IMG/VR virus record: IMGVR_UViG_3300045996_000738
Coordinates: 1 to 22,075 of that record
From: a virus
DNA length: 22,075 bases
Strand: one strand, 5' to 3'
Under the pieces are notes generated by a model that saw only the letters and a list, made by a program, of their open reading frames with translations, searched no databases and was not told where the DNA came from. The translations under genes were made by a program, and so were the position numbers. Shown here piece after piece: positions 2,707-22,075 of this stretch (positions are counted from its first letter, which is position 1; every line of letters begins with the position of its first letter).

Positions 2707-3135
2707 TCAGTTCTCCATCGGCGCGAACATGACCCAGCTCGCAATGATGACCGGCTGGCCCACGCTAACGTTTGCCTGCTCCACGACGAGCTGGCCGTCG
2801 CCAGGTAGGGCGCTCTCAAGGATCACCTTACCGTCGAACACCGTGACATTGCCAGAAGAGGTCGAGACCCTGAACCAACCCGCCGTGCCGTTCGACAATC
2901 CCAGCCTTTCCTCACCGAGGGAATAAGCGCTGGCGATCGAGCCGGAGCCGACTGAAGCGGCAGCTCCAAAGGCTGGCGACGGGAGGGTGATCGACGCCAG
3001 GAGAGTGCCCGTGGCGGCGTCGGCCGCGCTCGGCGGCTGCGCCCCGTCGTAGATACGGAGTGTCCCCCCGTTGAGCTTCGAGAGGAGACCGTCAAGGGCC
3101 GCTCGAGTACCAAGAGCCGCAACCCGCAACGTCAC
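2707..3135 (-). CDS. Small tail protein of unknown function after the tape measure
   Basis: This encodes 142 residues. The start is GTG at 3135, overlapping the tape-measure stop as GTGA, which implies coupled translation. The first 30 residues (RAALDGLLSKLNGGTLRIYDG) look helical then beta. The rest is Gly/Ser/Ala/Val-rich beta sequence (GSGSIASAYSL, GTAGWFRVSTSSGNVTVFDG, IIASWVMFAP). That composition and the place directly after the tape measure fit a minor tail or tail-tip protein, but I recognise no named family. The stop TGA lies 2 bases before the GTG of the next tail gene, so the small genes here behave as one translationally coupled group. Confidence 0.7.
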   Translation of the reverse strand: MTLRVAALGTRAALDGLLSKLNGGTLRIYDGAQPPSAADAATGTLLASITLPSPAFGAAASVGSGSIASAYSLGEERLGLSNGTAGWFRVSTSSGNVTVFDGKVILESALPGDGQLVVEQANVSVGQPVIIASWVMFAPMEN

Positions 3136-6100
3136 GCTATGGCCCTCCCCTTCAGCCGCCTGGCCTCGGTCTCGAGCTGGCGGGTCAGGTCGCGCGCGAA
3201 CTGCCGCTGCGTCGTCTGTCCGCCAACGTAGACCGGCTGCTGCATGATGATGGTCCCGCCAGAACCGCGCGCTGCGGTACCCCGCAACCGGCCGCCAGCT
3301 CCAACCCGCACGTCGTCCATCCGCCTCTCAAACTGAGCCGCCGCGCTTCTACGCTGTTCGCTGACGCCGACCGCCCGGCGCTCCAGGTCGAGCCCGCCGG
3401 ACACGCCCTCCCTTGCCGCGTTCGCCACCTGTGGCCCGACCCCGGCGAGCTGGTAAGCTGCATCCTGGATTGCGCTCGTGTCCATGCTGTTGATGGCCTG
3501 GAGGAGCGGCCCGTACTGACCAGAGGCTCGCCGGTTGATGATCCACTCGCCCATCTGGGCAATGATAGGCACGTCGCCGGGCCGCATGTCGGAATAGGCG
3601 CGGGTCTTCTTGCCGCTGCCGGCCGGCTGCCCCGTGTGGTGTACGGCCACCTCGCCGCCGACCACGCCACCGCTGTGGAACAGCCCGCCGATAGCGTCGC
3701 CGATGCCGCTGCCGATACTCTTAATACCGCCGCCTATGCCGCCGAGTATGCTGCGCGCCGACGAGGCGGCCGAGCTGGCGGCCGAGACGATCCCGCTGAA
3801 CGTCGTCCTGACCGTGCTCACCATGGTCGACGCCGCGGAGACCACGCCCGAGAAGATCGTGCGGATGCTCGAGGCCATGCCTGAGAATAGGGAGATCGTC
3901 GCGCTGACCATCGAGCGCGCGGCCGACAGCACGCCGCTCAGCATGGCCTGAATAGCGCTCACGATTTGCTGTAGAGCGGTCCGAAGCCAGCCCATGAAGG
4001 TGGTGAAGGCGCTCTGCAGGCCGCTCAGCATGGACCGCCAGTTGGTGCCCATGAGGAGGAAGGCGGCGCCGGCCGCGGCTGCCACGTAGGGGAAGGCGGC
4101 GGCAGCGACAGTCTGCCAGCCGGACACGGCCGTGGTCAGGCTGGAGAAGACGCCCGTACCGGTGCTGCCCACCGTAGTCAGCGCGCTGGTAGCGGTGGCC
4201 CCGGCGGCATTGCCAGCCTGGCCCATTTTGCTGAAGGCGGCGGTCGAGGTGCTGCCCAGAACGTTGAAAACGCTGCTCGAGGTCGAGCCGATGCCGGTAA
4301 GGTAGGTGAATAGGGACCGACCGGCGCCGGCGATAAAGGAGGTGATTTCCTTGGCAATGACGTTGGCGAATATCTGTTTGAAGTAAGCCCCTAGATTGTC
4401 GAGCTCGAACTTGCCCGTCATGACGAAGTCGGAGATGCCCTTCTCTAGATCGGTGAACACCTGCTTGCCGATCGCCTCGAAAGTCTTGAACCGGTTCGAG
4501 GCGTCGTTGACGAAGGCCGTCATGCCGGCTTGCAGGCCGGCAAAGGCCGACCTGGACTTGGCGACCTCGGCGTTGAGCTGAGCCATCGCCTGCTGGGCCT
4601 TGGCCATCTCCTGGCTGCCGACCGCGCCCATCTGTTGATAGCGGGTAATGATCTCCTGGATCGCGACAGCCTGTTCCCGCGCGGTCAAGCTGGTGTTCTT
4701 CATGACCGCGTTGATCTGCGTGTTCATGGCTTCACCGGAAGCTTTCGCAGCCGCGGTGAGCTGGTCGAGCGCTGCCTTGGCTTGGTCGATCGGGGCCTTT
4801 ACCTGGGTCATCCCGTTGTAGGACGCGATCAGGGCCTCAACCTGGGTCTTCTGCTGCTGGATCGTGAGCGTCGTGTTGTTCATGACCTGGCCTAAGCCGG
4901 TCACGAGCTGCTGCGTTGCGGTGAGCTTTACAATTTCAGCGGTGACCGTTCGTGCGGCGGCACCACCCTGTTCGCCCATCTGTAGAAGTGCGGTCTTGAG
5001 CTGTTCGAGAGCGGCGATCTTCTGCGTTGTGCCCCAATCCTTATTCTTGATTTCCTCCACGATCTTTGTAGTTGCCGCGGTTGCTGCCGCTGACATTTCA
5101 GCAAACTTCTTGATTGCCGGGTCAACTCCAAGGGAGACCTTCAACCCGATCTGAGCAGCCATGCCCTCCAGGTTTGTATTGACGGCCAGGACCATCTTCT
5201 TGATCTCGGCGTCAACCTTGGTCGCCATGTCCGTCGCAGCCTTGGCGACGCCGGCCCCCATGGTGTTAGCGGCGGTGGTTGCGCCAGTCGACATTCTCCC
5301 CATTTCACCCGTTACCCTGTCGGCAGCCCCCGCCACCGCCAGTGTCATTCCGCCAGACATCTGCTCGGCCGCCCGCAGAGCCCCGGTCGACATGCCCGTG
5401 ACCTGCTGGACGGTTTGGGTGTTCATCGTTTGAAACGACTGACCTACCTTGCCGGCCATCGTGGCAACGGTGGTCGGGACGGTAGTGGTCAGATGGTTCC
5501 AGGTCGCGAGGGCCGGGGTAACGAGCAGGTCGAGCTCGCGTAGCACTTGGCTCTTGAGGTTAACGAACTCTTGCGTGACCCCGGCAACGCCGTTGGTCGA
5601 GATATTCTTGATGCTCTGCCAAGCAGAGGTAATCCCGTTGATAACAGACGTGAATGGAGCAAGCGCGATGCTAACAAGGGTTGGCCCCCACGAGCGGACT
5701 AAGTCCAGAATACCGGAAAGCCCCGAGCCAAAGCCTGTGCGCCAGGTAGTTAGAGCCGTCTGAATTCCGTTGGTGATATTTGTGAAGGTCTGGCTGAAAT
5801 TGGTGATCAGCGTGTTTCCCCACTGCTGGACTGTCGTCACAACAGTGGCGAGGCCGGTGCCTATCGCCTGCGCCCAGGACTGCACTTTGGTCGTGATCGC
5901 CGTCGTGATCTCAGTCCACGACGTAGTCACGGTGGTAACGAGGGTCTGCCCCCAGGTACTGATTGCCTGCACAACCGACGAGAGGCCGCTGGCTATCGCC
6001 TGAGCCCACCCCTGCACGCGAGTTGTGATCGCGGTGGTAACGCTCTCCCAAGCCTGCGCCGCACTGGTAACAAGCTGCTGGCCCCAGGAGGCTATGGCCT

Positions 6101-9100
6101 GGACGACAGCGCTTAGCCCTGACTGGATCGCCTGTGCCCAGCCCTGGACACGAGTGGTGATCGCTGTGGTAACGCTTGTCCACGCGGCCGTCGCGGCCGT
6201 GACGAGTTGCTGGCCCCACGAGGTGACCGCCTGCACAACGGCGCTAAGGCCGCCGGCAATCGCCTGCCCCCAGCTCTGAACCTTGGTTGTGATGGCGGTG
6301 GTGACCGCGGTCCAGGCCGTCGTGACCGCTTGGACAAGCTGCTGCCCCCAAGCCGAAAGCGCCTGCGCGACGGCCGCTAGCCCGGCCTGAATAGCCTGTG
6401 GCCACCCCTGCACGCGCGTGGTGATAGCTGTGGTTACGGAGGTCCAAGCCGTCGTGACCGCCTGGACGAGCTGAGAACCCCAAGACTGGAGGGCCTGAGC
6501 TACTGCCGTAAGGCCACCTTGAATGGCCGCCGGCCAACCTTGGACTCTGGTCGTGATTGCCGTCGTGACGCTCGTCCATGCCGTCGTAACCGCGGTGACG
6601 AGCTGCGAGCCCCAAGAGCTCAGGGCCTGGGCCACAGCGGCCAAGCCGCTCTGGATTGCCTGCGGCCAGGTCTGCACCCGGGTAGTGATCGCGGTCGTGA
6701 CCGTCGTCCACGCGGCAGTCACCGCCGCAACGAGCTGGGCCCCCCAGTTCGAGAGCGCCTGCGCCACGGCGGTGAGCCCGCCGGCGATCGCCGATGGCCA
6801 GCCCTGAACCCTCGACACCAGAGCCGTGGTCCATTCCGTGGCCCGGGTCGTGATCGTGGTGGCAATCGTGCCGGCCCAGGTGCCAATCGAGCTCAAGACA
6901 GCCGCGAGCCCGCCAGCGATGGACTGCGCCCAGCCCTGAACCCGGGTAACCAGGGCGGTCGTCCAGCCGGTCGTCGAGGCGGTAACGGAGGTGGTGCCTT
7001 GCTGGCCCCACCCTGCAATTGCCCCGATGACCGCGGCGAGACCTCCGCCTATAGCCTGCGCCCAGCCCTGCACGCGAGCGACGAGCGCGGTAGTCCACTC
7101 AGTGGCCTTGGTCGTGATAGTCGTGGCGACCTGGCTGGCCCACGTGCCGACCGCGGTCACCACCGCAGCCAGGCCGCCCGCGATCGAAGAGGCCCACCCG
7201 GTCACCTTCGAGACCAGCGCCGTCGTCCATTCCCCGGCCTTGGTGGCAACCGTCGTCGCGACTGTTCCTGCCCAGGTCGTGACCGCCGACACCACGGCGG
7301 CCAGCCCCGAACCAATCGAGGCGGCCCAGCTTTGGACTTTGCCGACCAGGGCCGTGGTCCACTCGCCCGCCTTGGTGGCCACGGTGGTAGCAATCGTCCC
7401 GGCCCAGGTGGTGATCGAGGAAATAACGGCCGCCAAACCGCTCGCAATCGACGACGCCCAGCCCGTCACCTTGGCGACCAGAGCACTGGTCCATTCCCCG
7501 GCCTTCGTCGCGATGGTACTGGCAACCTGCCCAGCCCAGGTCGTCACGGCCGAGATCACCGCGGCCAGGCTGCTGCCGATGGATGATGCCCAGCCCTGGA
7601 CCTTGGAGACGAGCGCGGCCGTCCACTCGCCTGCTTTGGTCGCGATGGTCGAGGCAACCTGACCGGCCCAGGTGCCGATGGCCGACACCACGGCGGCTAG
7701 GCCACTAGCTATCGACGATGCCCAGCCCGATACCCTGGCAACAAGCGCCGAGCTCCACTCGCCTGCCTTGGTCGTCACCGTAGTAGCGATTTGACCTGCC
7801 CAGGTCGTCACGGCGCTGATCACGGCCGCAAGCCCTGAGCCAATCGAGCTGGCCCAGCCGCTGACGCCGGCGACGACAGCAGTTGTCCACTCCTTCGCTT
7901 TCTGGGTTATCGTGCTAAGAACTGACCCACCCCAGGTCGTGAAGGTCGAAAAGAGCGATGAAAGGGCGCTGCCGATAGCCGGCAGCCACGACTGAATCGA
8001 CGCCCCACCGACCGGCGTGATTTTGGCCCATATCGCGGTGATGGCGGACCAGAGCTGCTGGCCCCACGTTCCGAACGTCGAGAAGATCGATGCCAAAGCG
8101 CCGGTGATAGCCGGTCCCCAGGCCTGGATCGATATGCCACCGATAGGCGTAATCTTGGCCCAGATGCCGGATACCGTGTTGAGGAGATTCTGGCCCCAGG
8201 CGACGAAGGAGTTGACGATATTCTGCAAACCGGGCGGCAGCGACGACAGCAGTAGGCTGACGAAGTTCTTGGCGATCGCCACCATGCCGGAGAACGTGCC
8301 GTCCCAGTCCTTCGCCAGCGCCCCGAAAATGGTCTTCAGATTGGTGAACACCGCAGCGAGCTGCGGCCCGTAGGCGACGGCGAGGGCGGCCGCGGCCGCC
8401 GTGAAGGCGACGATCACGGCGATAGTCGCCCCGATCGGCGTGGCCAGGGCTGCAACCGCCGTCGCGAGCGTGCCCAGAATGATCAGCACCGGTCCGGCCG
8501 CGACCGCGATGCCCGCGATCGTGAAGCCCATCTTCAGAATCATCGGGTCGGCCTTCGACACCCAGTCAATGAAGGCAGCGCCCTTGCGGACCATGTCCTC
8601 GAAGAATTTGCCGATGCCAGATCCGTAGATGGCGAGGCTCAGGTTCTCGACCGCGCCGGTTAGCTGGTCCCAAGCGCCGCTCATGCCCTTCTGGGCTAGA
8701 GTGTTTGCGACGGTAGACGCCTTGACGTCGTTGATCCCGCGCACCGTCTCGGCGTAAATCGCGGGGCCTTTGCTGGCGATTGCCAGAGCCGCGTCCTGCG
8801 CGTCTGCGCCGAAGATAATCGCCGCCGAGGCCGTCTTCTGTTTTTCCGACAGGTTCCCGAAAGCGCCAGAAAGCTGCCCGGCTATCGCGTTCATCGGCAG
8901 CATCTTGCCCGAAGCGTCGAATACGTTGATGCCGAGCCTTTCCATCTCGGCCTTTGCCGCGCTCGTCGGGCTCGCAAGCCGGGTGAACATCGTGCCCAGC
9001 GACGTGCCGGCTTTCTCACCCGAGGCGAAGTTGGGCGAGATCGTCGCGATGGTTGCGATAAATTCCTCGAAGGTCAGCCCGGCTTGGGCGGCCGAGGTGC

Positions 9101-9680
9101 CGCCGGCATAGATCGCGTTCGAGAACTCGTGGACCCCGAAGGTACTCTTCTGCGCGCCGCCCGTGAGCAGGTCCATCATGTGAGGCAGGTCTCGCGACGA
9201 TGTCCCGAAGATGCCCATGGACTTCGACGCAACATTGGCCGCGCCCGCGAGGTCGGTGCCCGTCGCCCCGGCCAGCGCCGTTGCCGCCTGAACGCCGCCA
9301 TTCATGGCCTGCTCGAGGGTGAGCCCGCCGGCTGCTAGGCTCTCGATTGCGCCCACCGCCTCAGAGGCCGAGAAGGTTGTTGTTGAGCCGATCAGCTTGG
9401 CGGTCTCGGCAACGCCTTTCATCGTCTCCTCGGTGGCCCTGTTTGCCACCTGGATGCGATTCATGGACGTTTCAAAGTCTGCGCCCGTCTTGAGGACAGA
9501 CGCGCCGAATAGCGCAAGCGGTGCGGCAGCGATCGTGATCGACTGGCCGACTGACTGCATCTTGGAGCCGACGTCACCAAGCTTGGTGAAGGCCGCTTCA
9601 ATGCTACCGACACCGCTGGTGACCTGATCCAAACCGTCGAGGGTGACGGTAATCCGAACGTCGCCGGTGCTCGGCATCAT
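3132..9680 (-). CDS. Phage tail tape measure protein (TP901 type), 2182 residues
   Basis: The tape measure sets tail length and is ejected with the DNA. The N-terminal 200 residues match the TP901 core (helices with MNRIQVANRATEETMKG, TTTFSASEAVGAIESLAAGG, NVASKSMGIFGTS). Two hydrophobic stretches follow at about 380-430 (GIAVAAGPVLIILG, IGATIAVIVAF), as usual for tape measures that act in host membranes. Residues 607-1310 are sixteen exact-length 44-residue repeats rich in Trp. Next come coiled-coil segments at about 1430-1700 and a Gly/Ser/Ala-rich hydrophobic region. The C-terminus has the usual FHSGGVVGGE and MGEWIINR motifs. The Shine-Dalgarno GAGAGGGG abuts two consecutive ATGs; the second, at 9677, has better spacing. 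At about 0.15 nm per residue, 2182 residues predict a tail near 0.3 micrometres, unless the protein is processed. Confidence 0.95.
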   Translation of the reverse strand: MMPSTGDVRITVTLDGLDQVTSGVGSIEAAFTKLGDVGSKMQSVGQSITIAAAPLALFGASVLKTGADFETSMNRIQVANRATEETMKGVAETAKLIGSTTTFSASEAVGAIESLAAGGLTLEQAMNGGVQAATALAGATGTDLAGAANVASKSMGIFGTSSRDLPHMMDLLTGGAQKSTFGVHEFSNAIYAGGTSAAQAGLTFEEFIATIATISPNFASGEKAGTSLGTMFTRLASPTSAAKAEMERLGINVFDASGKMLPMNAIAGQLSGAFGNLSEKQKTASAAIIFGADAQDAALAIASKGPAIYAETVRGINDVKASTVANTLAQKGMSGAWDQLTGAVENLSLAIYGSGIGKFFEDMVRKGAAFIDWVSKADPMILKMGFTIAGIAVAAGPVLIILGTLATAVAALATPIGATIAVIVAFTAAAAALAVAYGPQLAAVFTNLKTIFGALAKDWDGTFSGMVAIAKNFVSLLLSSLPPGLQNIVNSFVAWGQNLLNTVSGIWAKITPIGGISIQAWGPAITGALASIFSTFGTWGQQLWSAITAIWAKITPVGGASIQSWLPAIGSALSSLFSTFTTWGGSVLSTITQKAKEWTTAVVAGVSGWASSIGSGLAAVISAVTTWAGQIATTVTTKAGEWSSALVARVSGWASSIASGLAAVVSAIGTWAGQVASTIATKAGEWTAALVSKVQGWASSIGSSLAAVISAVTTWAGQVASTIATKAGEWTSALVAKVTGWASSIASGLAAVISSITTWAGTIATTVATKAGEWTTALVGKVQSWAASIGSGLAAVVSAVTTWAGTVATTVATKAGEWTTALVSKVTGWASSIAGGLAAVVTAVGTWASQVATTITTKATEWTTALVARVQGWAQAIGGGLAAVIGAIAGWGQQGTTSVTASTTGWTTALVTRVQGWAQSIAGGLAAVLSSIGTWAGTIATTITTRATEWTTALVSRVQGWPSAIAGGLTAVAQALSNWGAQLVAAVTAAWTTVTTAITTRVQTWPQAIQSGLAAVAQALSSWGSQLVTAVTTAWTSVTTAITTRVQGWPAAIQGGLTAVAQALQSWGSQLVQAVTTAWTSVTTAITTRVQGWPQAIQAGLAAVAQALSAWGQQLVQAVTTAWTAVTTAITTKVQSWGQAIAGGLSAVVQAVTSWGQQLVTAATAAWTSVTTAITTRVQGWAQAIQSGLSAVVQAIASWGQQLVTSAAQAWESVTTAITTRVQGWAQAIASGLSSVVQAISTWGQTLVTTVTTSWTEITTAITTKVQSWAQAIGTGLATVVTTVQQWGNTLITNFSQTFTNITNGIQTALTTWRTGFGSGLSGILDLVRSWGPTLVSIALAPFTSVINGITSAWQSIKNISTNGVAGVTQEFVNLKSQVLRELDLLVTPALATWNHLTTTVPTTVATMAGKVGQSFQTMNTQTVQQVTGMSTGALRAAEQMSGGMTLAVAGAADRVTGEMGRMSTGATTAANTMGAGVAKAATDMATKVDAEIKKMVLAVNTNLEGMAAQIGLKVSLGVDPAIKKFAEMSAAATAATTKIVEEIKNKDWGTTQKIAALEQLKTALLQMGEQGGAAARTVTAEIVKLTATQQLVTGLGQVMNNTTLTIQQQKTQVEALIASYNGMTQVKAPIDQAKAALDQLTAAAKASGEAMNTQINAVMKNTSLTAREQAVAIQEIITRYQQMGAVGSQEMAKAQQAMAQLNAEVAKSRSAFAGLQAGMTAFVNDASNRFKTFEAIGKQVFTDLEKGISDFVMTGKFELDNLGAYFKQIFANVIAKEITSFIAGAGRSLFTYLTGIGSTSSSVFNVLGSTSTAAFSKMGQAGNAAGATATSALTTVGSTGTGVFSSLTTAVSGWQTVAAAAFPYVAAAAGAAFLLMGTNWRSMLSGLQSAFTTFMGWLRTALQQIVSAIQAMLSGVLSAARSMVSATISLFSGMASSIRTIFSGVVSAASTMVSTVRTTFSGIVSAASSAASSARSILGGIGGGIKSIGSGIGDAIGGLFHSGGVVGGEVAVHHTGQPAGSGKKTRAYSDMRPGDVPIIAQMGEWIINRRASGQYGPLLQAINSMDTSAIQDAAYQLAGVGPQVANAAREGVSGGLDLERRAVGVSEQRRSAAAQFERRMDDVRVGAGGRLRGTAARGSGGTIIMQQPVYVGGQTTQRQFARDLTRQLETEARRLKGRAIA
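5751..7862 (-). repeat. Sixteen tandem 132-bp (44-residue) repeats inside the tape measure gene
   Basis: Starting at the codon for SGW (minus strand, 7862), sixteen units of exactly 132 bases follow without an indel and end at 5751; a degenerate 17th continues below. Units 1-8 are type A, with Trp at positions 3, 21 and usually 36 and the pattern GWAxxIxxGLAAV...WAG...KAxEWTTALVxxV. Units 9-15 are type B, with Trp at 3, 21 and 33 and the pattern GWxxAIxxGLxAV...WGxQLV...AWTxVTTAITTRV. Unit 16 is degenerate in its second half. In type A the steps from Trp36 to the next Trp3 and from Trp3 to Trp36 are 11 and 33 residues, so a unit equals four 11-residue helical turns, a spacing known for Trp/Phe in tape measures. 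Confidence 0.95.
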
Positions 9681-14228: not shown

Positions 14229-14543
14229 CTAGACCTCTCCGGGCATGATCACGCAGAGGATGTTGGGCTGGCCCTCGAGATGCCCCCAGCAGGCATGAAG
14301 CTGTCCGTCAGGAGAGGGCAGATCGATGATCCTGTCCCGAGGGATCGGTCGGCAGGCTCCCTCGATCTGTAGCCCCTCCTTTCTGTCGGGAAGAGAGCAG
14401 GACTCGACCGGGAAGCAATCCTTCCCGTTGCAGCACGAGCCGCCGGTTGGGTTCTTCAGGCCGGAGTACCACTCGTGCGCAGCGGCTCCGCTGGCGATCA
14501 GAGAGAGGCCGACCGCAAGGGGCGCGACTTTCCGGTTTGTCAT
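14229..14543 (-). CDS. Secreted Cys-rich small protein
   Basis: This encodes 104 residues from ATG at 14543, overlapping the glycosyltransferase stop as TGATG; a GTG three codons upstream (14552) is an alternative. Residues 1-22 form a signal peptide (MTNRK, hydrophobic PLAVGLSLIASG, cleavage after AAA). The mature part starts HEWYSGLKNPTGGSCC and has seven Cys (SCC, KDC, ESC, GAC, HAC, ILC), suggesting disulfides in the periplasm. Small HxWY...CC..xDC exported proteins are familiar to me from Rhizobiales genomes and their prophages, where their function is unknown. A cell-envelope role in the infected host or lysogen is possible. Its coupling to a glycosyltransferase gene may mean both act on the envelope. 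Confidence 0.75.
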   Translation of the reverse strand: MTNRKVAPLAVGLSLIASGAAAHEWYSGLKNPTGGSCCNGKDCFPVESCSLPDRKEGLQIEGACRPIPRDRIIDLPSPDGQLHACWGHLEGQPNILCVIMPGEV

Positions 14544-17500
14544 CAGAACCACGCCCCGCTGATTGGCTCGACGGCGGCCTTGGTTCGCGCTGCCATAAAG
14601 CGCTTGAAGTCGTCCACCGAAGCGAACCGCCGGGCCTCGGGGCCGACCGGATCGCCGATGCCCTGCCGCTGGGCCGCCACCTGCACGTCGGCTACCACGT
14701 CCGAGCCGAGCAGGTGCGTGGCCTCAAAGTAGAACCCTGCGGCATCGGCGGCCTGCCGTCCCGGGTCGTCGGCAAACGTCTCGCGGTAGATGCGGAGCAC
14801 GTCCTCGCACAGCTCGAACGCAGCAGGGTGCAGGCGGGCTGATCCAGGCTGGCTGAAGTCGACCCGGTTGCCGGCCAGTACCTTCTTGGCCTGAACCACG
14901 CTGTCCCGCATCATGATCATCAGGCCGAGCTTGCGATCCGGGTACTTGCGTTGATCCGCCATCAGCATCGGCAGGTTGCGCTCAAAGCGTCCCGAACGGG
15001 TGTTCTGATCCAAGTAGCCGACATGCGCCAGGTGCACGTCCGAGAGCAGGAGCGCCCGCCCGGCCCCTTCGTTGATCCCGAACTCGGCATGCTCGTGCAG
15101 GATGCCGAAGAAGCGCATAGGCTTGCCGCTCTCGCCGGGGCGGCGGCGGAACACGCGCGCCGGCAGGTCGGGCTTCCACCTCCCGTCAACCGCGAAATGA
15201 TGGTGCTGGATGGAGTAGCTGTGAAAGATGTTCTCGCGCAGATAACGCCACAGCGTGCGAGCGGAGATCATCCGCTCGTCCCCGTCGATCATCATGACCC
15301 AATCGCCCGTGCAGGCGTCGAGCACTGCATTGCGGCTGGCCTCGAAGCCTGCCTCGCGTGGCGGCGGGACCTTGACCGCCCGAGCGCCGTACCGTTCCCA
15401 AATGCGGCACGCTTCGTCGCTCGCGCCGGTGTCCCCGATCACTATCTCGTCGGCGATCGGCGCGATGCTCTCGAGGCACCAGTGCAAGGTCTGGTGGTCG
15501 TTCGGTCCGCCCACGATCATCATAGCGGAGAGAGTCTGCCGAGGGCGTTGCTGCCGCAGCTTGCGCTGCCAGTCGATTTCTCCGAGCGGCTTGTGGTCGA
15601 CCTGATAGGTGACGTGGGTGTTGCCCAGGACTTCGCCGGTCACCGGACACTGAGCCAGCGGCACCACGTCAAGCACTAGCTCAGACTTGCCGCCAAAGAT
15701 GTCCTCAAGATCGGCGTTGCTCCACTCGCGGAGATGCTGTCCACGAAGAGGCTCCGGCTGCTGCGTCTCCCACGGGCCGTAGGGCATGGTGATGCAGATC
15801 AGCCCGCCCGGCTTGACGTAGCCCTCGATCCGCTCGACCAGGGCGATCGGGTCGGCGACATGCTCCAGCACCTCGGCCATGATCGCGACGTCGAAGCCCA
15901 GGCCGTGCTTCCAATGATCGGCGAACTGCCCTTCCAGCCGCTCGTCATCACAAATGAATGTTAGTCCATGAGGATGCTTGGCCTTTGCAAATGCCAGCTT
16001 CTTTGCGCGGCTCACCTCATCAGGACTGGCGTCGACCCCGACGTAGTCCGCCCCGAGCCGATTACTGAGCGTTACTGCACACTCGCCCTGGCTGCAGCCG
16101 AAGTCCAGAATCCACAGCGGCTCACGGCCCGGCTGCGGACCCAGCTCCGGACCCATCTTGAAGTGCCGCCGGATGCTCTGGTCCATCATGTGGAAGCGCG
16201 CGAAGGGCCGCTCCATGAATCGGTCGTCAGGCGCATGGTTCAGGAGCCCCTGGAACACATGCTCGTTTCCCGGCCCGACCTTCCCTTCGTAGTAGGCCGC
16301 CAGGGTCTCGGGAGTGTCGGCGTGCGCGAACCGCTCCACGAGCCAATCGGCGATCGGCCGGATGCGATCTGCATCCTCTGGCTGGAACCGGCCGTCGAGT
16401 ACAGCGCCCACCATCTCGTCGGCTGCCTCAATGTCCTGCCGGCGGATGAAGTGCCGGGCGAGCCGCACCGGATCGGCGCACTCCTGCTCCATGATCGCCA
16501 GCGCTTCGTTGACGACCTGCATCGCGACAGGAGCCCACCCGAGGCCGGCCGCACGGCGGCGGCCTAGCTTCTGCATCTCCTCGGACACCTTCGCGTCCAT
16601 GAGAACCTCGCAGGCCGCGTCTGCCAAGGCAGCCGGCGTCTCCCCAGCACCCGCGTGGGGGCCGTCCAGCGGAACCAGCTCGCCACAGACGCCCACCGTC
16701 TCGGACAGCGCCCCCCGATCGGTAGAGACCCAGCACATCCCGCACGCCATCGCCTCCATCGCCGCGATGCAGGACGTGTCCGCGAAGCTTGGATCGAGCG
16801 CCCCGGGCGTCGGGTACAGGTACAGCCCTGCCTGATGGTACAGGTCGTAGAGCCGGGGCTTGTTCAGCCCTTCGATCCACGCCACCCGGGGCGTGCCGTC
16901 CGCATTGAACTTGGCCGCCAGGCGCTTCAGCTCTTCATGGACCACGGCTGTCTGCTGGGTCGTGAAGTCGTAGAACGTTATCGCCAGCTTCGCGTCGGGC
17001 ACCCGCTCGAGGATGCGCGGGTAGACCTGATTGAGCAGCACGTCCAGGCCTCGCTCCGGGCGAGCGCCGTAGACGATCAGCTTGGGGTCGCGCTTGTCGC
17101 CGCTCGCTTCGACCCGCTTCCTCGACGCCTCGATTTCCGCGAGGTCGATCCCGTTGCGGCTGACCATGAACAGGCGGTCCGGCAGATCGGGGTATGCCTC
17201 CTGCCACTGCCGGCGCTGCCAGTCGCTGACAGTAACCACACGGTCGATGTTGTGTGCGGCGGCGTAAAGCTCCGGCGCTCGTCGGGCGAACAGCAAGTCG
17301 TGCGCCCAGAGCATTGTCACCTTGGTCGGGAAGCGCATGGCCAGGTGCAGCGGCGAGCGCTGAACTATGATCAGATCACTCGGGGTGGCCGAGCAGACGT
17401 TGGAGAAGCTGCGCTCGGGAGCGAGGCGAACGTCGCGCCAGACGGCATGGCCGGGCACATTGCAGAACGCCGTGACCCTGTGCCCCAGCTCCGCAATAGC

Positions 17501-17608
17501 GGCGGCGAGCTGGAGGCCCGCCGTCTCTGAACCGCCAAGGGACTTGCTGTAGGGGTCTTCGGGGTCGATCGGCAAGCCGGGCACGAGCATGCGAATGTCG
17601 AGCTTCAT
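14543..17608 (-). CDS. Three-domain glycosyltransferase - SAM methyltransferase - glycosyltransferase
   Basis: This encodes 1021 residues. Residues 1-375 are a GT-B (GT4-like) glycosyltransferase: SLGGSETAGLQLAAAIAELG near residue 23, VVTVSDWQRR, SRNGIDLAEI and the sugar-nucleotide region DTSCIAAMEAMACGMCWVS (278-295). Residues about 380-490 are a helical linker. Residues 498-610 are a class I SAM methyltransferase: motif I LDFGCSQGE (501-509), acidic VGVDAS, then AEVLEHVADP (578-587) and VKPGGLICITMPYG. Residues about 690-900 are a GT-A (GT2-like) transferase with DEIVIGDTGASDE and the DGD metal motif in MIDGDER (774-779). The whole could build and methylate a short glycan on a virion protein or host surface. 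It lies just after a terminator following the capsid gene and overlaps the secreted protein gene. Domains are clear; the acceptor is unknown. Confidence 0.93.
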   Translation of the reverse strand: MKLDIRMLVPGLPIDPEDPYSKSLGGSETAGLQLAAAIAELGHRVTAFCNVPGHAVWRDVRLAPERSFSNVCSATPSDLIIVQRSPLHLAMRFPTKVTMLWAHDLLFARRAPELYAAAHNIDRVVTVSDWQRRQWQEAYPDLPDRLFMVSRNGIDLAEIEASRKRVEASGDKRDPKLIVYGARPERGLDVLLNQVYPRILERVPDAKLAITFYDFTTQQTAVVHEELKRLAAKFNADGTPRVAWIEGLNKPRLYDLYHQAGLYLYPTPGALDPSFADTSCIAAMEAMACGMCWVSTDRGALSETVGVCGELVPLDGPHAGAGETPAALADAACEVLMDAKVSEEMQKLGRRRAAGLGWAPVAMQVVNEALAIMEQECADPVRLARHFIRRQDIEAADEMVGAVLDGRFQPEDADRIRPIADWLVERFAHADTPETLAAYYEGKVGPGNEHVFQGLLNHAPDDRFMERPFARFHMMDQSIRRHFKMGPELGPQPGREPLWILDFGCSQGECAVTLSNRLGADYVGVDASPDEVSRAKKLAFAKAKHPHGLTFICDDERLEGQFADHWKHGLGFDVAIMAEVLEHVADPIALVERIEGYVKPGGLICITMPYGPWETQQPEPLRGQHLREWSNADLEDIFGGKSELVLDVVPLAQCPVTGEVLGNTHVTYQVDHKPLGEIDWQRKLRQQRPRQTLSAMMIVGGPNDHQTLHWCLESIAPIADEIVIGDTGASDEACRIWERYGARAVKVPPPREAGFEASRNAVLDACTGDWVMMIDGDERMISARTLWRYLRENIFHSYSIQHHHFAVDGRWKPDLPARVFRRRPGESGKPMRFFGILHEHAEFGINEGAGRALLLSDVHLAHVGYLDQNTRSGRFERNLPMLMADQRKYPDRKLGLMIMMRDSVVQAKKVLAGNRVDFSQPGSARLHPAAFELCEDVLRIYRETFADDPGRQAADAAGFYFEATHLLGSDVVADVQVAAQRQGIGDPVGPEARRFASVDDFKRFMAARTKAAVEPISGAWF

Positions 17609-17783: not shown

Positions 17784-18764
17784 CTATGCCGCGAGGGTGT
17801 TCTTCAGCAGGTAGCCGAGCTCTCGACCAGTGAGCTTTTCACCCTGGAAGTACCCGCCCTCGATCACCTCGACCTTGGGCTCGCCGGCCCGGTCGAAGCG
17901 GTCGCGCACGACGTTGAAATTGTCGCCCACCGGCATCCCGTAGGGCCCCTCGGACGGGCGCCAGCGGAACCGCGACAGGAAGTTCGGCGCCGCCTGGTTC
18001 TCCGGGTTCGTGACGGCGAACAGGCAGATGTTGCCCCAAATCGGGGCAACCGACATCGCCTGCCCCTGCTTGGCCGTGTTCTGGAGGACCTTGGCGACCA
18101 CGAGCCGCTGCACCTTGAGGATGTTGCGAGCCACGATCTCGTCGCTAAGCTCGCCGCCGGCAGTGGCGTTCCAGTTCGAGAGCAGGCGCGGGTGCGTCTT
18201 GATTGCGTTCAGCGACTGCCAGTCAATGATGGCCGTATTCGGGGACATCCCCGAGGTGAGCCAGACGCCGGCATGAGCGCTCGTCACCTGACCCACGATG
18301 TCGGCCGAGCCGCTGGCCCACGAAGTGGCCCCGCTCAGTGCCACGATCGTAGCCGGCCCACCCGAGCTGGTCGCCAGCGTGGCAAGTCGCTGCTCCTGAT
18401 TGCGCCGCAGCACCGTCAGGATCAGGTCGGTGTGGTTCTGTCGGAGCTGCATCGAGGGGTCCTCATTGCTGAGGTCCTCGAGCGCGATCTCCGACTTCAG
18501 CGCCCGGTTGTGCGCGAAGTAGGTGTCCGAGCTGACCGTGAACCACACGTCTTTCGGACGGGCCTTCGGCGCGCGGAGATCGTCCACGGTGCTGAGCCAG
18601 CCGGCCGGGTCGAATACGTTGTAGATGCCGGACTGCTTGTCGACCGGGACGGTGACGGAGATCTGGCCGGCGATAAAGCCGTCCGCTCCGATGTCAAAGT
18701 TGCGTGTCGCGTAACGGGAAAGAACCGGGTCCCGGTAGGTTCCGCGACCGACTGGAAGTGCCAT
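17784..18764 (-). CDS. Major capsid protein
   Basis: This encodes 326 residues, the main shell subunit. It has no membrane segment or signal; the N-terminus is GRGTYRDPVLSRYATRNFDI followed by FIAGQISVTVPVDKQSGIYN. A helical stretch (DVWFTVSSDTYFAHNRALKS, then ALEDLSNEDPSMQLRQNHTD and VLRRNQEQRLATLATS) resembles the spine-helix region seen in HK97-fold capsids with YxxxxHALKxxV-type signatures. ILKVQRLVVAKVLQNTAKQG and a C-terminal region with NPENQAAPNFLSRF complete it. Placement after the protease/scaffold and decoration genes, a good Shine-Dalgarno (GAGAGGG) and a strong terminator behind it fit a highly expressed capsid gene. The HK97 fold is inferred from context. Confidence 0.85.
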   Translation of the reverse strand: MALPVGRGTYRDPVLSRYATRNFDIGADGFIAGQISVTVPVDKQSGIYNVFDPAGWLSTVDDLRAPKARPKDVWFTVSSDTYFAHNRALKSEIALEDLSNEDPSMQLRQNHTDLILTVLRRNQEQRLATLATSSGGPATIVALSGATSWASGSADIVGQVTSAHAGVWLTSGMSPNTAIIDWQSLNAIKTHPRLLSNWNATAGGELSDEIVARNILKVQRLVVAKVLQNTAKQGQAMSVAPIWGNICLFAVTNPENQAAPNFLSRFRWRPSEGPYGMPVGDNFNVVRDRFDRAGEPKVEVIEGGYFQGEKLTGRELGYLLKNTLAA

Positions 18765-19201: not shown

Positions 19202-19915
19202 CTACTGCGTGATGCCGTTGTAGGCCCTCACCAGATTGGCGTTCTTGGGGTCTCGGCTGACGAGCTCCATGGCCGTGGCGAAGTCGACGCCGGGATGCTC
19301 GGTCGTGTACTGCTCGACCTTGTCGACCAGCTCCTTGCCCGGATCCTCGGAACCGAAGTCGCCGCGCTCGGCGTAGCTGCGGCTCGGCGCAACGGTGGTG
19401 AAGAACGGCTTGGCGCCATCTGCCAGCACCTCGATGAAGTCCTTGAGCACGGACAGCGACGGGACCGGCTTGGCCTCCTCGCCGTCGATCGCCGAGAACT
19501 TGACCGTGCGCTCGCCGCCCTCGCTCATGGCGTCGGCGAAGGCGGCGACGTAGCGGCGAAGGCGAGGGATCGGGCAGCTCTGGACGAGCGCCTTGACCTG
19601 GGCCTGTCGCGCCTGCTCCTTCTCCGCCTGCCTCTCGGCCTCCAGCGCCTGGACGCGCTCGCCCATCTCGCGGAGCCGCACCGTCGAGCTAGCGTTCTCG
19701 TTGGCCACCCGCGTGGCGGCGTCACGCTCTTGGCGAAGCGTGCGGATCTCGTCCAGGGCCTGCTGAAGCTGGCTGGAGACGCCGGCTGCATCCATGTTGA
19801 CAGCGCCAGCGCCGCCGCCGGCCTGCTCATGATTCTGCGTTCCGCCCGGCTTGTTGCCGGCGTCACCGCCACCGGTCTCTGTCCGACCGCCGGCATCTGC
19901 ATTCGGGACGGACAT
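19202..19915 (-). CDS. Nested in-frame scaffold protein (Mu gpZ-like)
   Basis: An internal ATG at codon 189 of the protease gene (MSVPNADAGG) has AGGAG six bases upstream, as good as the main start. Translation from it gives 237 residues containing only the Gly/Asn-rich linker, the coiled coil and the C-terminal capsid-binding part, without the protease domain. Mu makes scaffold protein Z from an internal start within I, and lambda makes Nu3 within C, so this design is established. That this ATG is used is inferred from the Shine-Dalgarno and domain boundary. Confidence 0.6.
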   Translation of the reverse strand: MSVPNADAGGRTETGGGDAGNKPGGTQNHEQAGGGAGAVNMDAAGVSSQLQQALDEIRTLRQERDAATRVANENASSTVRLREMGERVQALEAERQAEKEQARQAQVKALVQSCPIPRLRRYVAAFADAMSEGGERTVKFSAIDGEEAKPVPSLSVLKDFIEVLADGAKPFFTTVAPSRSYAERGDFGSEDPGKELVDKVEQYTTEHPGVDFATAMELVSRDPKNANLVRAYNGITQ

Positions 19916-20479
19916 GCTCCGCTCCTGCTCTGTTGGCTGCTTGCCTGGGGTCGTGACGTAGCTTCTAGCCTCTTCTGCGGCACCAAAGGAAGCAAGACTT
20001 GCACGTAGGGGCTTGAGGTTGCTGACGCCGGGCGGGTGCGCGCCGAGGATCGCCACCGCCTTGAGCGCTCGCGGGAACTTCTCCCCGTCGCGCTTCATGT
20101 TGATGAAGATCTCGGACGAGACCGTGTCATAGCGGCCGTCACGGATCAGCCCGACCAGATCGTCTGGCACATCCTCGAAGTCGGCGAGCAGTACGTCGCC
20201 CTCGCGCCGCGGGTTCTTGACCCAGCCGTAAGCGGGAGCCGCCGGATCGTCCACATGACCGAGCTTTACTGGCGGCACGTAGCCTGCCTTGCCGTAGGCG
20301 TCGATCATCTGGTCAATGTCGCTGGTCGTGTACTTCTCGCCGTTCCAGGTGCCGGACCGGAAAACCTCGATGCCCTTGATCGTCTGGCCGAACTCCTCGG
20401 TCCCGCCTTCGGGGACCGGCTCGAGCACCGGCATGGACACGGGTACGCTATCGGCCCCCGCCGTCTCGGTCACAGGCAT
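19202..20479 (-). CDS. Prohead protease with C-terminal scaffold (Mu gpI-like)
   Basis: This encodes 425 residues. The N-terminal domain (about 25-165) matches Mu gpI: KGIEVFRSGTWNG, TTSDIDQMIDAYG, PPVKLGHVDDPAAPAYGWV, a LLADFEDVPDDLVGLIRDG segment, YDTVSSEIF and AILGAHPPGVSNLKPL. His75, Ser121/122 and His148 are candidate catalytic residues of a serine-type, herpes-assemblin-like fold; this assignment is inferred. Residues about 165-228 are a Gly/Thr/Asn-rich linker. Residues 229-300 are a long coiled coil (LQQALDEIRTLRQERDAATR, VQALEAERQAEKEQARQAQV), as for scaffolds. The GAGGAG Shine-Dalgarno before the ATG is strong. The protein should cleave itself and the scaffold inside the prohead. 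Confidence 0.88.
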   Translation of the reverse strand: MPVTETAGADSVPVSMPVLEPVPEGGTEEFGQTIKGIEVFRSGTWNGEKYTTSDIDQMIDAYGKAGYVPPVKLGHVDDPAAPAYGWVKNPRREGDVLLADFEDVPDDLVGLIRDGRYDTVSSEIFINMKRDGEKFPRALKAVAILGAHPPGVSNLKPLRASLASFGAAEEARSYVTTPGKQPTEQERSMSVPNADAGGRTETGGGDAGNKPGGTQNHEQAGGGAGAVNMDAAGVSSQLQQALDEIRTLRQERDAATRVANENASSTVRLREMGERVQALEAERQAEKEQARQAQVKALVQSCPIPRLRRYVAAFADAMSEGGERTVKFSAIDGEEAKPVPSLSVLKDFIEVLADGAKPFFTTVAPSRSYAERGDFGSEDPGKELVDKVEQYTTEHPGVDFATAMELVSRDPKNANLVRAYNGITQ

Positions 20480-20789: not shown

Positions 20790-20999
20790 TCAGCCTGCCT
20801 TGCCGGCGAACGCCAGCTCTACCCAGGGGCCCAGCCACACGGCGGCGGTCGCGCCGAACAGCAGAGCCAGCAGGCCAGCAAGAAGGTTACTGCCCGTGAC
20901 AGCGATAACGACCGGTGCCGTGATCAGTGCCGCCGGGTACCCGCCGATGAAGCTGGAAAGTACCTGCGAAACAGGGTCACGGGCGGGGCTTGGGGTCAT
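20790..20999 (-). CDS. Small two-helix membrane protein
   Basis: This encodes 69 residues. A soluble N-terminus (MTPSPARDPVSQVLSS) precedes two hydrophobic helices at about 17-36 (FIGGYPAALITAPVVIAVTG) and 39-58 (LLAGLLALLFGATAAVWLGP) with a short GSN turn, and a short polar end. No signal-peptide cleavage site is seen. The ATGA overlap with the minor head gene shows coupling. Size and two-helix layout recall holins or superinfection-exclusion proteins, but no lysin gene is near, so the function is open. Confidence 0.6.
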   Translation of the reverse strand: MTPSPARDPVSQVLSSFIGGYPAALITAPVVIAVTGSNLLAGLLALLFGATAAVWLGPWVELAFAGKAG

Positions 21000-22075
21000 T
21001 CTGCTCTTCCTCCGAACTGCTCAGGTGCGAGGGCGTTCGCCTCGCCCAGATCGCGCGACGAGATCGGCTCCAGCTCCATGTCTAGCGTGATCGGTAGGAG
21101 TATGCTCCTACATCTATAATGATTCGGCGGTGTGAAGTTGTCGAGCACCGGATCGTCTATGCGGAACTGCTTGCCGTGCAGGTGACGGCAGATCGGCGTC
21201 GTCACCCGGTCGAGCACCGCAGAATACTGCATCCCCTTGACCAAGCCGCGCCCCGACAGCCGGCGCGCCTCCACGATCCGACCCTGATTGTAGGCCGCCG
21301 TGCTCTGTGTCCGCACCACCGTCAGCATCCGATCGGCGCGCAGCGCCTGCGGATCGAGGCCGGGTGAGCCGACCCACGGAGAAAGCGCCTCGAGGATGCG
21401 ACCGCTCGTCTCGCGGAACGGGCGGCCGTAGCGCAGGCCCTCCAGGATCTCGTTCCGGGCTATGTCGGTGAACTTCTCGACCAGCCCCGAGATGAACAAG
21501 GTCGCCTTGGCTCGCAGCCACGCGATCGCCGCCTCGGGAACGAAGGTCGGCAGCGCAACGTCGAACTCCTGCGCCTGCCTCGCCTCGGTCCGGCAGTCGG
21601 CCGCGCCCTGGCGGTAGAGCGCCGTCATGCTCTTGACGTAAGCGGCTGTCACCGCGGGCGGTAGCTCGAGCTTGACCTTCCCGACACCGGCCAGCGTCGG
21701 CGGCCGGCGCTCGAGCTCGGACAGCTTGGCCTGCACCGCCTTGCGGGCGGCGATCGATACCATCCGCACGCCCTGACGATCGAGCCCGTCGAGCCGCTCG
21801 ACCACCTGCGCGAAGTCCACCCGGCGCTCGGCCACGGTGAGCGAGGGATCATCCCGCGGCGGCGGCTCGGGATCGGGGATGTCGGAGGCCGCTTCCTCGG
21901 CCTGCTCGCGCACCTTCTCCTCGCCCAGATCCAAAGGCTTGATGAACTCGCCGCCCAGCATGATGGCGAACGTCGGCGGCTCGACCGGTAGCTCGCCCTT
22001 GTGATCGTAGGACAGGGTGACGTGCGGCCGGTAGGTCGGATAACCCCACGATGCGCCCAGCCGCTCGGCCTCCTC
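20996..22075 (-). CDS. Minor head protein (SPP1 gp7 / Mu gpF family) with N-terminal 2H-phosphoesterase-like part; N-terminus beyond window
   Basis: The frame is open to the right edge. The C-terminal 250 residues are a phage head morphogenesis domain: TQSTAAYNQGRIVEARRLSG, then a DRVTTPICRHLHGKQF Cys/His knuckle and FTPPNHYRCRSILLPIT, the family signature (PICxxLxGK...PPHxxCRS). It joins the portal in early prohead assembly. Upstream, the segment YRPHVTLSYDHKGELP continuing into FAIMLGGEFIKPLDLG fits the second H-x-T motif and last strand of a 2H phosphoesterase. Such domains are fused to portal or minor-head genes in Mu-like phages and include the anti-CBASS Acb1 fold. The first H-x-T motif would lie outside the window, so activity cannot be judged. 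An ATG at 21961 is an unlikely start because it splits this segment. Confidence 0.85.
   Translation of the reverse strand, partial: EEAERLGASWGYPTYRPHVTLSYDHKGELPVEPPTFAIMLGGEFIKPLDLGEEKVREQAEEAASDIPDPEPPPRDDPSLTVAERRVDFAQVVERLDGLDRQGVRMVSIAARKAVQAKLSELERRPPTLAGVGKVKLELPPAVTAAYVKSMTALYRQGAADCRTEARQAQEFDVALPTFVPEAAIAWLRAKATLFISGLVEKFTDIARNEILEGLRYGRPFRETSGRILEALSPWVGSPGLDPQALRADRMLTVVRTQSTAAYNQGRIVEARRLSGRGLVKGMQYSAVLDRVTTPICRHLHGKQFRIDDPVLDNFTPPNHYRCRSILLPITLDMELEPISSRDLGEANALAPEQFGGRAE

Follow-up and report, generated by a model that had tools for sequence, protein, structure and literature searches.

At one end of a 22,075-base virus record (IMGVR_UViG_3300045996_000738, the whole of which is referred to here as the window), a frame that is open at its 5' end (20996-22075, minus strand, 359 residues within the window) joins the C-terminal third of an Acb1 domain to a linker and a MuF minor head domain. 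The Acb1 part (21923-22072, minus strand, residues 2-51) covers positions 89-140 of the 144 positions of the Pfam profile PF23474 and by itself scores 34.7 bits against a cut-off of 27 (E 1.7e-8), the remainder of the domain lying on an overlapping contig. It is followed by an acidic, proline-rich linker (21824-21922, minus strand) and by a MuF-type region (21080-21823, minus strand), which was delimited with a profile built during this analysis and in which Pfam places the core of Phage_Mu_F (PF04233) at 21104-21457 (residues 207-324, 58.3 bits against a cut-off of 29.6, E 1.5e-15). The same frame matches the NCBIfam model TIGR01641, the minor capsid domain of SPP1 gp7, with 60.7 bits against a cut-off of 39.65. 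No stop codon interrupts the frame between the two domains.

The original prediction, made from the letters of the window, had pointed to a segment, PHVTLSYD, resembling the second H-x-T of 2H phosphoesterases and fused ahead of a minor head protein. This segment lies on the minus strand at 22004-22027, inside the Pfam Acb1 match, and aligns as the second motif (H-V-T), equivalent to H113 and T115 of T4 Acb1; the fusion itself holds as described, with Acb1 preceding Phage_Mu_F in a single frame. The interval assigned to it at the time, 21962-22075, does contain the motif, but its end is an ATG codon through which the frame continues. A chance occurrence of the motif was rejected, as two independent profiles (Acb1 and Phage_Mu_F) exceed their cut-offs in one frame.

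The gene lies near other head genes. Downstream of it in the window are a head maturation protease (phrog_976, 19202-20479, minus strand), which is the next large head gene, and the major head protein (phrog_1005, 17784-18764, minus strand), both assigned with PHROGs. After the major head gene comes a 1,021-residue protein with a group 1 glycosyltransferase, a methyltransferase and a family 2 glycosyltransferase domain (14543-17608, minus strand), an unusual spot for such an enzyme. The window further encodes a tape-measure protein of 2,182 residues with PhageMin_Tail and Tape_meas_lam_C domains (3132-9680, minus strand), whose gene contains, at about 5983-7826, arrays of a 132-base unit (44 residues) that are about 70% alike.

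The complete Acb1 domain and its fold

A second contig, IMGVR_UViG_3300042904_000218 (here L002), shares a stretch of 9,749 bases with the window, 2 of them mismatched, and extends it by 445 bases on the upstream side. An assembly chimera was rejected on this agreement between the two contigs, which could both come from one sample. The frame runs on into the added bases and reaches 507 residues with its 5' end still open. The complete Acb1 domain (188-598 of L002, residues 63-199 of the frame) scores 104.5 bits against the same cut-off of 27 (E 5.3e-30) and covers profile positions 3-140 of 144. The first H-x-T motif, for which the original prediction had proposed a search beyond position 22075, is found there as MHCTTVYS (H-C-T); together with the window's H-V-T, both catalytic motifs are present. 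The fusion of an Acb1 domain to a minor head protein is thus confirmed and well supported.

When IMG/VR was searched with the protein of the window, or with the Acb1 domain by itself, the sole match was L002, which belongs to the same phage as the window. A first scan of bacterial genomes gave no match, and later profile scans took the place of these searches. A 30-base query aimed at sequence beyond the upstream end matched L002's own contig and no other.

The fold of the domain was predicted with AlphaFold2 on L002:179-616, using an alignment of 71 domains; there were 78 distinct ones, of which five that came from the phage collection and those of loci L018 and L052 were left out. The model shows a confident 2H fold (pLDDT 92.2, pTM 0.86); a single-sequence prediction (pLDDT 38) was set aside. 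Foldseek placed the model closest to the Acb1 of Erwinia phage FBB1 (7t26, E 5.7e-10; 7t27, E 2.6e-9), followed by the phosphodiesterase of Burkholderia phage BCSR5 and then by E. coli LigT. Structural superposition with VIA-align 2 gave the same order: 7t26 reached Z 17.3, with 134 residues aligned at rmsd 2.0 A and 33% identity, the BCSR5 enzyme 12.9 and LigT about 10. By sequence, phmmer matched the domain to the crystallised FBB1 Acb1 with E 1.9e-15. The 2H phosphoesterase fold that had been anticipated is therefore recovered in the model, and its best match is Acb1 itself. Neither of the two findings named as refuting the original prediction, a missing first H-x-T or an unlike fold, was made.

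Catalytic and ligand-contacting residues

As described in PMC9117128, the cleavage of cyclic di- and trinucleotides by Acb1 needs no metal and relies on two histidines; the enzyme's active site consists of H44, T46, H113 and T115, while Y12, W74, F107 and W147 stack on the bases and E141 contacts adenine. Nine further homologues were active in the same study. We took these residue numbers as those of T4 and placed them through phage RB69 in an alignment of 75 domains, T4 itself not being among them.

At the catalytic positions, the domain of the window's phage has His, Thr, His and Thr, and at E141 it has Glu. It thus shares with the Acb1 of FBB1 and T4 (PMC9117128; 7t26, 7t27) the 2H fold, both H-x-T motifs and the adenine-contacting residue. 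The FBB1 protein is a free-standing enzyme of 152 residues, whereas in the window's phage the enzyme forms one domain of a longer chain, flanked by a linker and MuF. The stacking positions also differ: Y12 is replaced by Phe, W74 by Glu, F107 by Tyr and the lid residue W147 by Glu, whereas FBB1 has Tyr, Phe, Tyr and Trp. Read from the alignment, the changes at Y12 and F107 appear conservative and those at W74 and W147 do not. Because the lid tryptophan is replaced, the substrate range or preference, or the affinity, of this enzyme may differ from that of T4 Acb1.

Across the 75 domains, H44, T46 and H113 are invariant, and T115 (one Ser) and E141 are each kept in 74. The lid tryptophan W147 is found in 61, and Glu at position 74 also in 61. 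Thirteen domains, the window's among them, have no Trp within 14 residues after E141. Motif 2 can be judged best in the loci from bacterial genomes (best 80 of 90), which were retrieved by the motif 1 pattern only, leaving motif 2 free to vary: its His is present in 79 of the 80, and the position of its Thr holds Thr or Ser in all (66 Thr, 14 Ser). In the viral loci (best 80 of 291), motif conservation is biased because they were retrieved by motif 1 or motif 2 patterns. The one loss of the second catalytic His among these genome loci, to Asn, occurs in locus L141, in a NUDIX-Acb1-XkdF protein (4284-7445, plus strand).

Selection on the fused domain was estimated from loci picked as close relatives, 10 of the 68 portal-fused viral loci. 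In Portal_Mu fusions (15 pairs, from 6 of 14 loci), dN/dS was 0.047-0.175 for Acb1 and 0.068-0.194 for portal plus linker; in Portal_3 fusions (6 pairs, from 4 of 54 loci), the values were 0.056-0.115 and 0.208-0.281. In the pairs compared, the constraint on fused Acb1 is thus similar to that on its carrier, or stronger.

Acb1 carriers and the probable portal upstream

Relatives were collected with profiles of the Acb1, portal and MuF domains, which were built from few seeds and for the most part iterated on the fetched loci. The original prediction had stated that 2H fusions occur next to phage portals, and most relatives found are indeed portal-Acb1 fusions, with 68 of 80 viral loci (best 80 of 291) and 74 of 80 bacterial-genome loci (best 80 of 90), a share that is no estimate for all Acb1, because the seeds of Acb1 profile A1 are mostly portal-linked (of five, two are portal fusions and a third adjoins a portal gene). 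Many free Acb1 copies are found in T4-like phages.

In the viral set, which includes the window's own phage (L011) and near-duplicates, the partner in the Acb1 frame is Portal_3 in 54 loci, Portal_Mu in 14 and MuF in one, the window's phage, the remaining 11 frames being of other kinds, alone or cut. The genome loci comprise 66 with Portal_3, 4 with Portal_Mu, 4 with the PF04860 type, 5 others and 1 with Acb1 alone, and, judged by their titles, they come mostly from Alphaproteobacteria, with Pseudomonas, Xanthomonas and others also represented. Pfam finds a Phage_portal domain in the viral locus L073, prohead protease S78 with Acb1 in the genome locus L113, and DUF2213 with Acb1 in the genome loci L099, L138 and L151; in the viral locus L048, XkdF follows Portal_Mu-Acb1. 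In Synechococcus phage Yong-M3-232, portal, Acb1 and a MuF-type minor capsid protein are overlapping neighbour genes.

Two other Synechococcus phages, Ssp-JY39 and Ssp-JY40, resemble the window in that Acb1 is joined to a head-vertex protein, Portal_3, and in Ssp-JY40 a MuF gene follows directly. These proteins differ from that of the window in having Acb1 at the C-terminus of the portal, MuF as a separate gene and a portal of another family than the one expected for the window. In the deposited portal structure of cyanophage Pam3 (8hds), the stretch 486-614 matches the window's Acb1 with E 0.0012, and its second motif is H-I-S. This entry was absent among the fold matches listed, though the sequence match exists; the Acb1-like stretch may not be resolved in the deposited structure.

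Several loci show further architectures. In L025 and its near relative L090 (both 3539-5086, plus strand), Acb1 lies inside a 516-residue protein with about 144 residues ahead of it, and in L025 a weak MuF match, below the cut-off, comes after it; these two are perhaps a second route to an Acb1-MuF protein. The Portal_3-Acb1 protein of L074 (1342-4059, plus strand) continues for about 240 residues with no further Pfam match, part of which resembles a JAB-type peptidase motif. Acb1 also occurs within huge frames in L014 (2,713 residues, open), L053 (1,822 residues, with a helicase-type domain) and L087 (1,586 residues, open, with a NUDIX domain). In L120, the MuF gene (5390-7993, plus strand), which adjoins a portal-Acb1 gene, has an intein-like splicing domain, below the cut-off.

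Both contigs of the window's phage end before the start of the protein. The 58 residues ahead of Acb1 on L002 are of low complexity and contain no start codon (ATG, GTG or TTG), the frame being open, and they resemble the linkers that come after portals in relatives. Among the MuF relatives (best 80 of 146), Portal_Mu (PF06074) and MuF share one frame in 50, are separate in 24 and belong to a 5'-open frame in 6. Because 50 of these 80 relatives are single Portal_Mu-MuF polypeptides, the whole protein is probably portal-Acb1-MuF, and its full layout is likely to be portal, linker, Acb1, linker and MuF.

Acb1 itself was found in one of these 80 relatives only, the window's own phage. The closest of them, L176 (IMGVR_UViG_3300048597_000276, 51% identity in MuF), resembles the window in its downstream head genes too, the order of protease, decoration and major head protein being common to the window, L176 and L181; in L176, an acidic low-complexity linker between portal and MuF takes the place of Acb1. 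Since this closest syntenic relative is without it, the Acb1 domain is regarded as accessory, and it was likely gained in, or lost from, the portal-MuF linker. In a tree of 151 tips after duplicate removal, in which free enzymes are thinly sampled, the window's Acb1 grouped, on long branches and with support 0.914, with free-standing enzymes of the T4 type and not with the portal-fused copies. A separate capture would explain this placement better than would an origin from the portal-fused type.

The stretch from portal to MuF measures 40 to 226 residues in the 50 single-frame relatives. In seven portal-MuF frames (L185, L186, L194, L196, L209, L219 and L227), 134 to 226 residues stand at the site that Acb1 occupies in the window, and these may be other cargo; no Pfam family matched the stretches of L186 and L209.

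Possible roles of the fused enzyme

Our preferred interpretation, to which we give a probability of about 0.6, is that a catalytically intact Acb1-type 2H domain sits in the linker of a head polypeptide, probably preceded by a portal, and clears CBASS signals, most likely late in infection. The fused enzyme would cut the cyclic di- and trinucleotide alarm signals of CBASS without a metal, using its two histidines. Being tethered to portal and MuF, it would be made together with the late head genes and located within or at the procapsid, enriched at the vertex under assembly, and the alarm molecules would most likely be cleared late, as the head proteins accumulate. A more specific version is tentative, and we would put it at well under even odds: the protein would be a triple portal-Acb1-MuF fusion whose portal-MuF linker serves as a cargo site for swapped anti-defence domains, and the ring of Acb1 formed at each new head vertex would clear alarm nucleotides where and when assembly would trigger CBASS.

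A different timing, which we consider unlikely, would have Acb1 packaged in the head and delivered with the DNA, pre-empting CBASS or related nucleotide signalling in the first minutes. This has precedents in print. In 2017, 2H domains fused to MuF or portal proteins were reported, and an RNase role or the degradation of defence nucleotides was suggested for them (PMC5512222); in 2022, 2H-MuF and 2H-portal fusions were proposed to be packaged and injected, most likely, and to counter nucleotide signalling (PMC9503650). These polyvalent proteins represent the same type of fusion as that of the window, with the same predicted use against nucleotide-based immunity, and the passages that describe them do not place Acb1 between portal and MuF, unlike the likely layout here. 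The range of Acb1 carriers found (three portal families, MuF, the prohead proteases S78 and XkdF, and DUF2213) also fits a carrier that places the domain in the head. On the other hand, the portal ring is twelve-fold and stays in the empty particle. If a portal is part of the same chain, as we infer, the domain would be held in that ring and left behind; injection into the next cell is therefore less likely than late action, unless a head protease frees the domain.

The fusion idea is thus not new: besides these two papers, Pfam holds an Acb1 family and the PDB holds a portal with a matching stretch. In the open-access literature on Acb1 or anti-CBASS combined with portal, virion, fusion or minor head protein, we found, by title and start of the abstract, no paper testing such a fusion. 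Some anti-CBASS proteins can be sensed by a host system, as described in PMC12657218, and such sensing is a possible cost of carrying them.

It is also distinctly improbable, more so than delivery with the DNA, that the domain acts on RNA rather than on defence signals, for example by trimming cleaved tRNAs at their 2',3'-cyclic phosphates or by cutting RNA. 2H enzymes act in this way in general, an RNase function was among those considered for MuF and portal fusions in PMC5512222, PHROGs labels the family 'RNA ligase', and the base-stacking residues of T4 Acb1 are only partly kept. Against this, Acb1 is the best match by both sequence and fold, well ahead of LigT in Z score, and the adenine-contacting Glu is present in all but one of the 75 domains. 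The literal PHROGs name, a plain RNA ligase, was rejected, since the Acb1 match is far better by profile, sequence and fold. Least probable is an enzymatically dead domain whose role in the portal/MuF polypeptide would be that of a spacer or an aid to assembly: most loci found do have Acb1 joined to a structural protein and the Pam3 portal carries such a stretch at its C-terminus, but the catalytic residues are near-invariant, purifying selection on the domain is strong, L176 does without it while keeping the same head genes, and in relatives without Acb1 (among the best 80 of 146) the portal-MuF stretch varies from 40 to 226 residues.

The Acb1 studied as an anti-CBASS enzyme in PMC9117128 is a small protein that stands alone; in the window's phage and in the majority of the relatives found, the enzyme forms part of a head-vertex protein, and these relatives are mainly phages and prophages of Alphaproteobacteria. 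The fusion, together with close relatives that are without Acb1, makes a head-linked anti-CBASS activity directly testable. If the fused enzyme is active, counter-defence would be tied to head assembly, and portal and MuF genes would be a place to seek further anti-defence domains.
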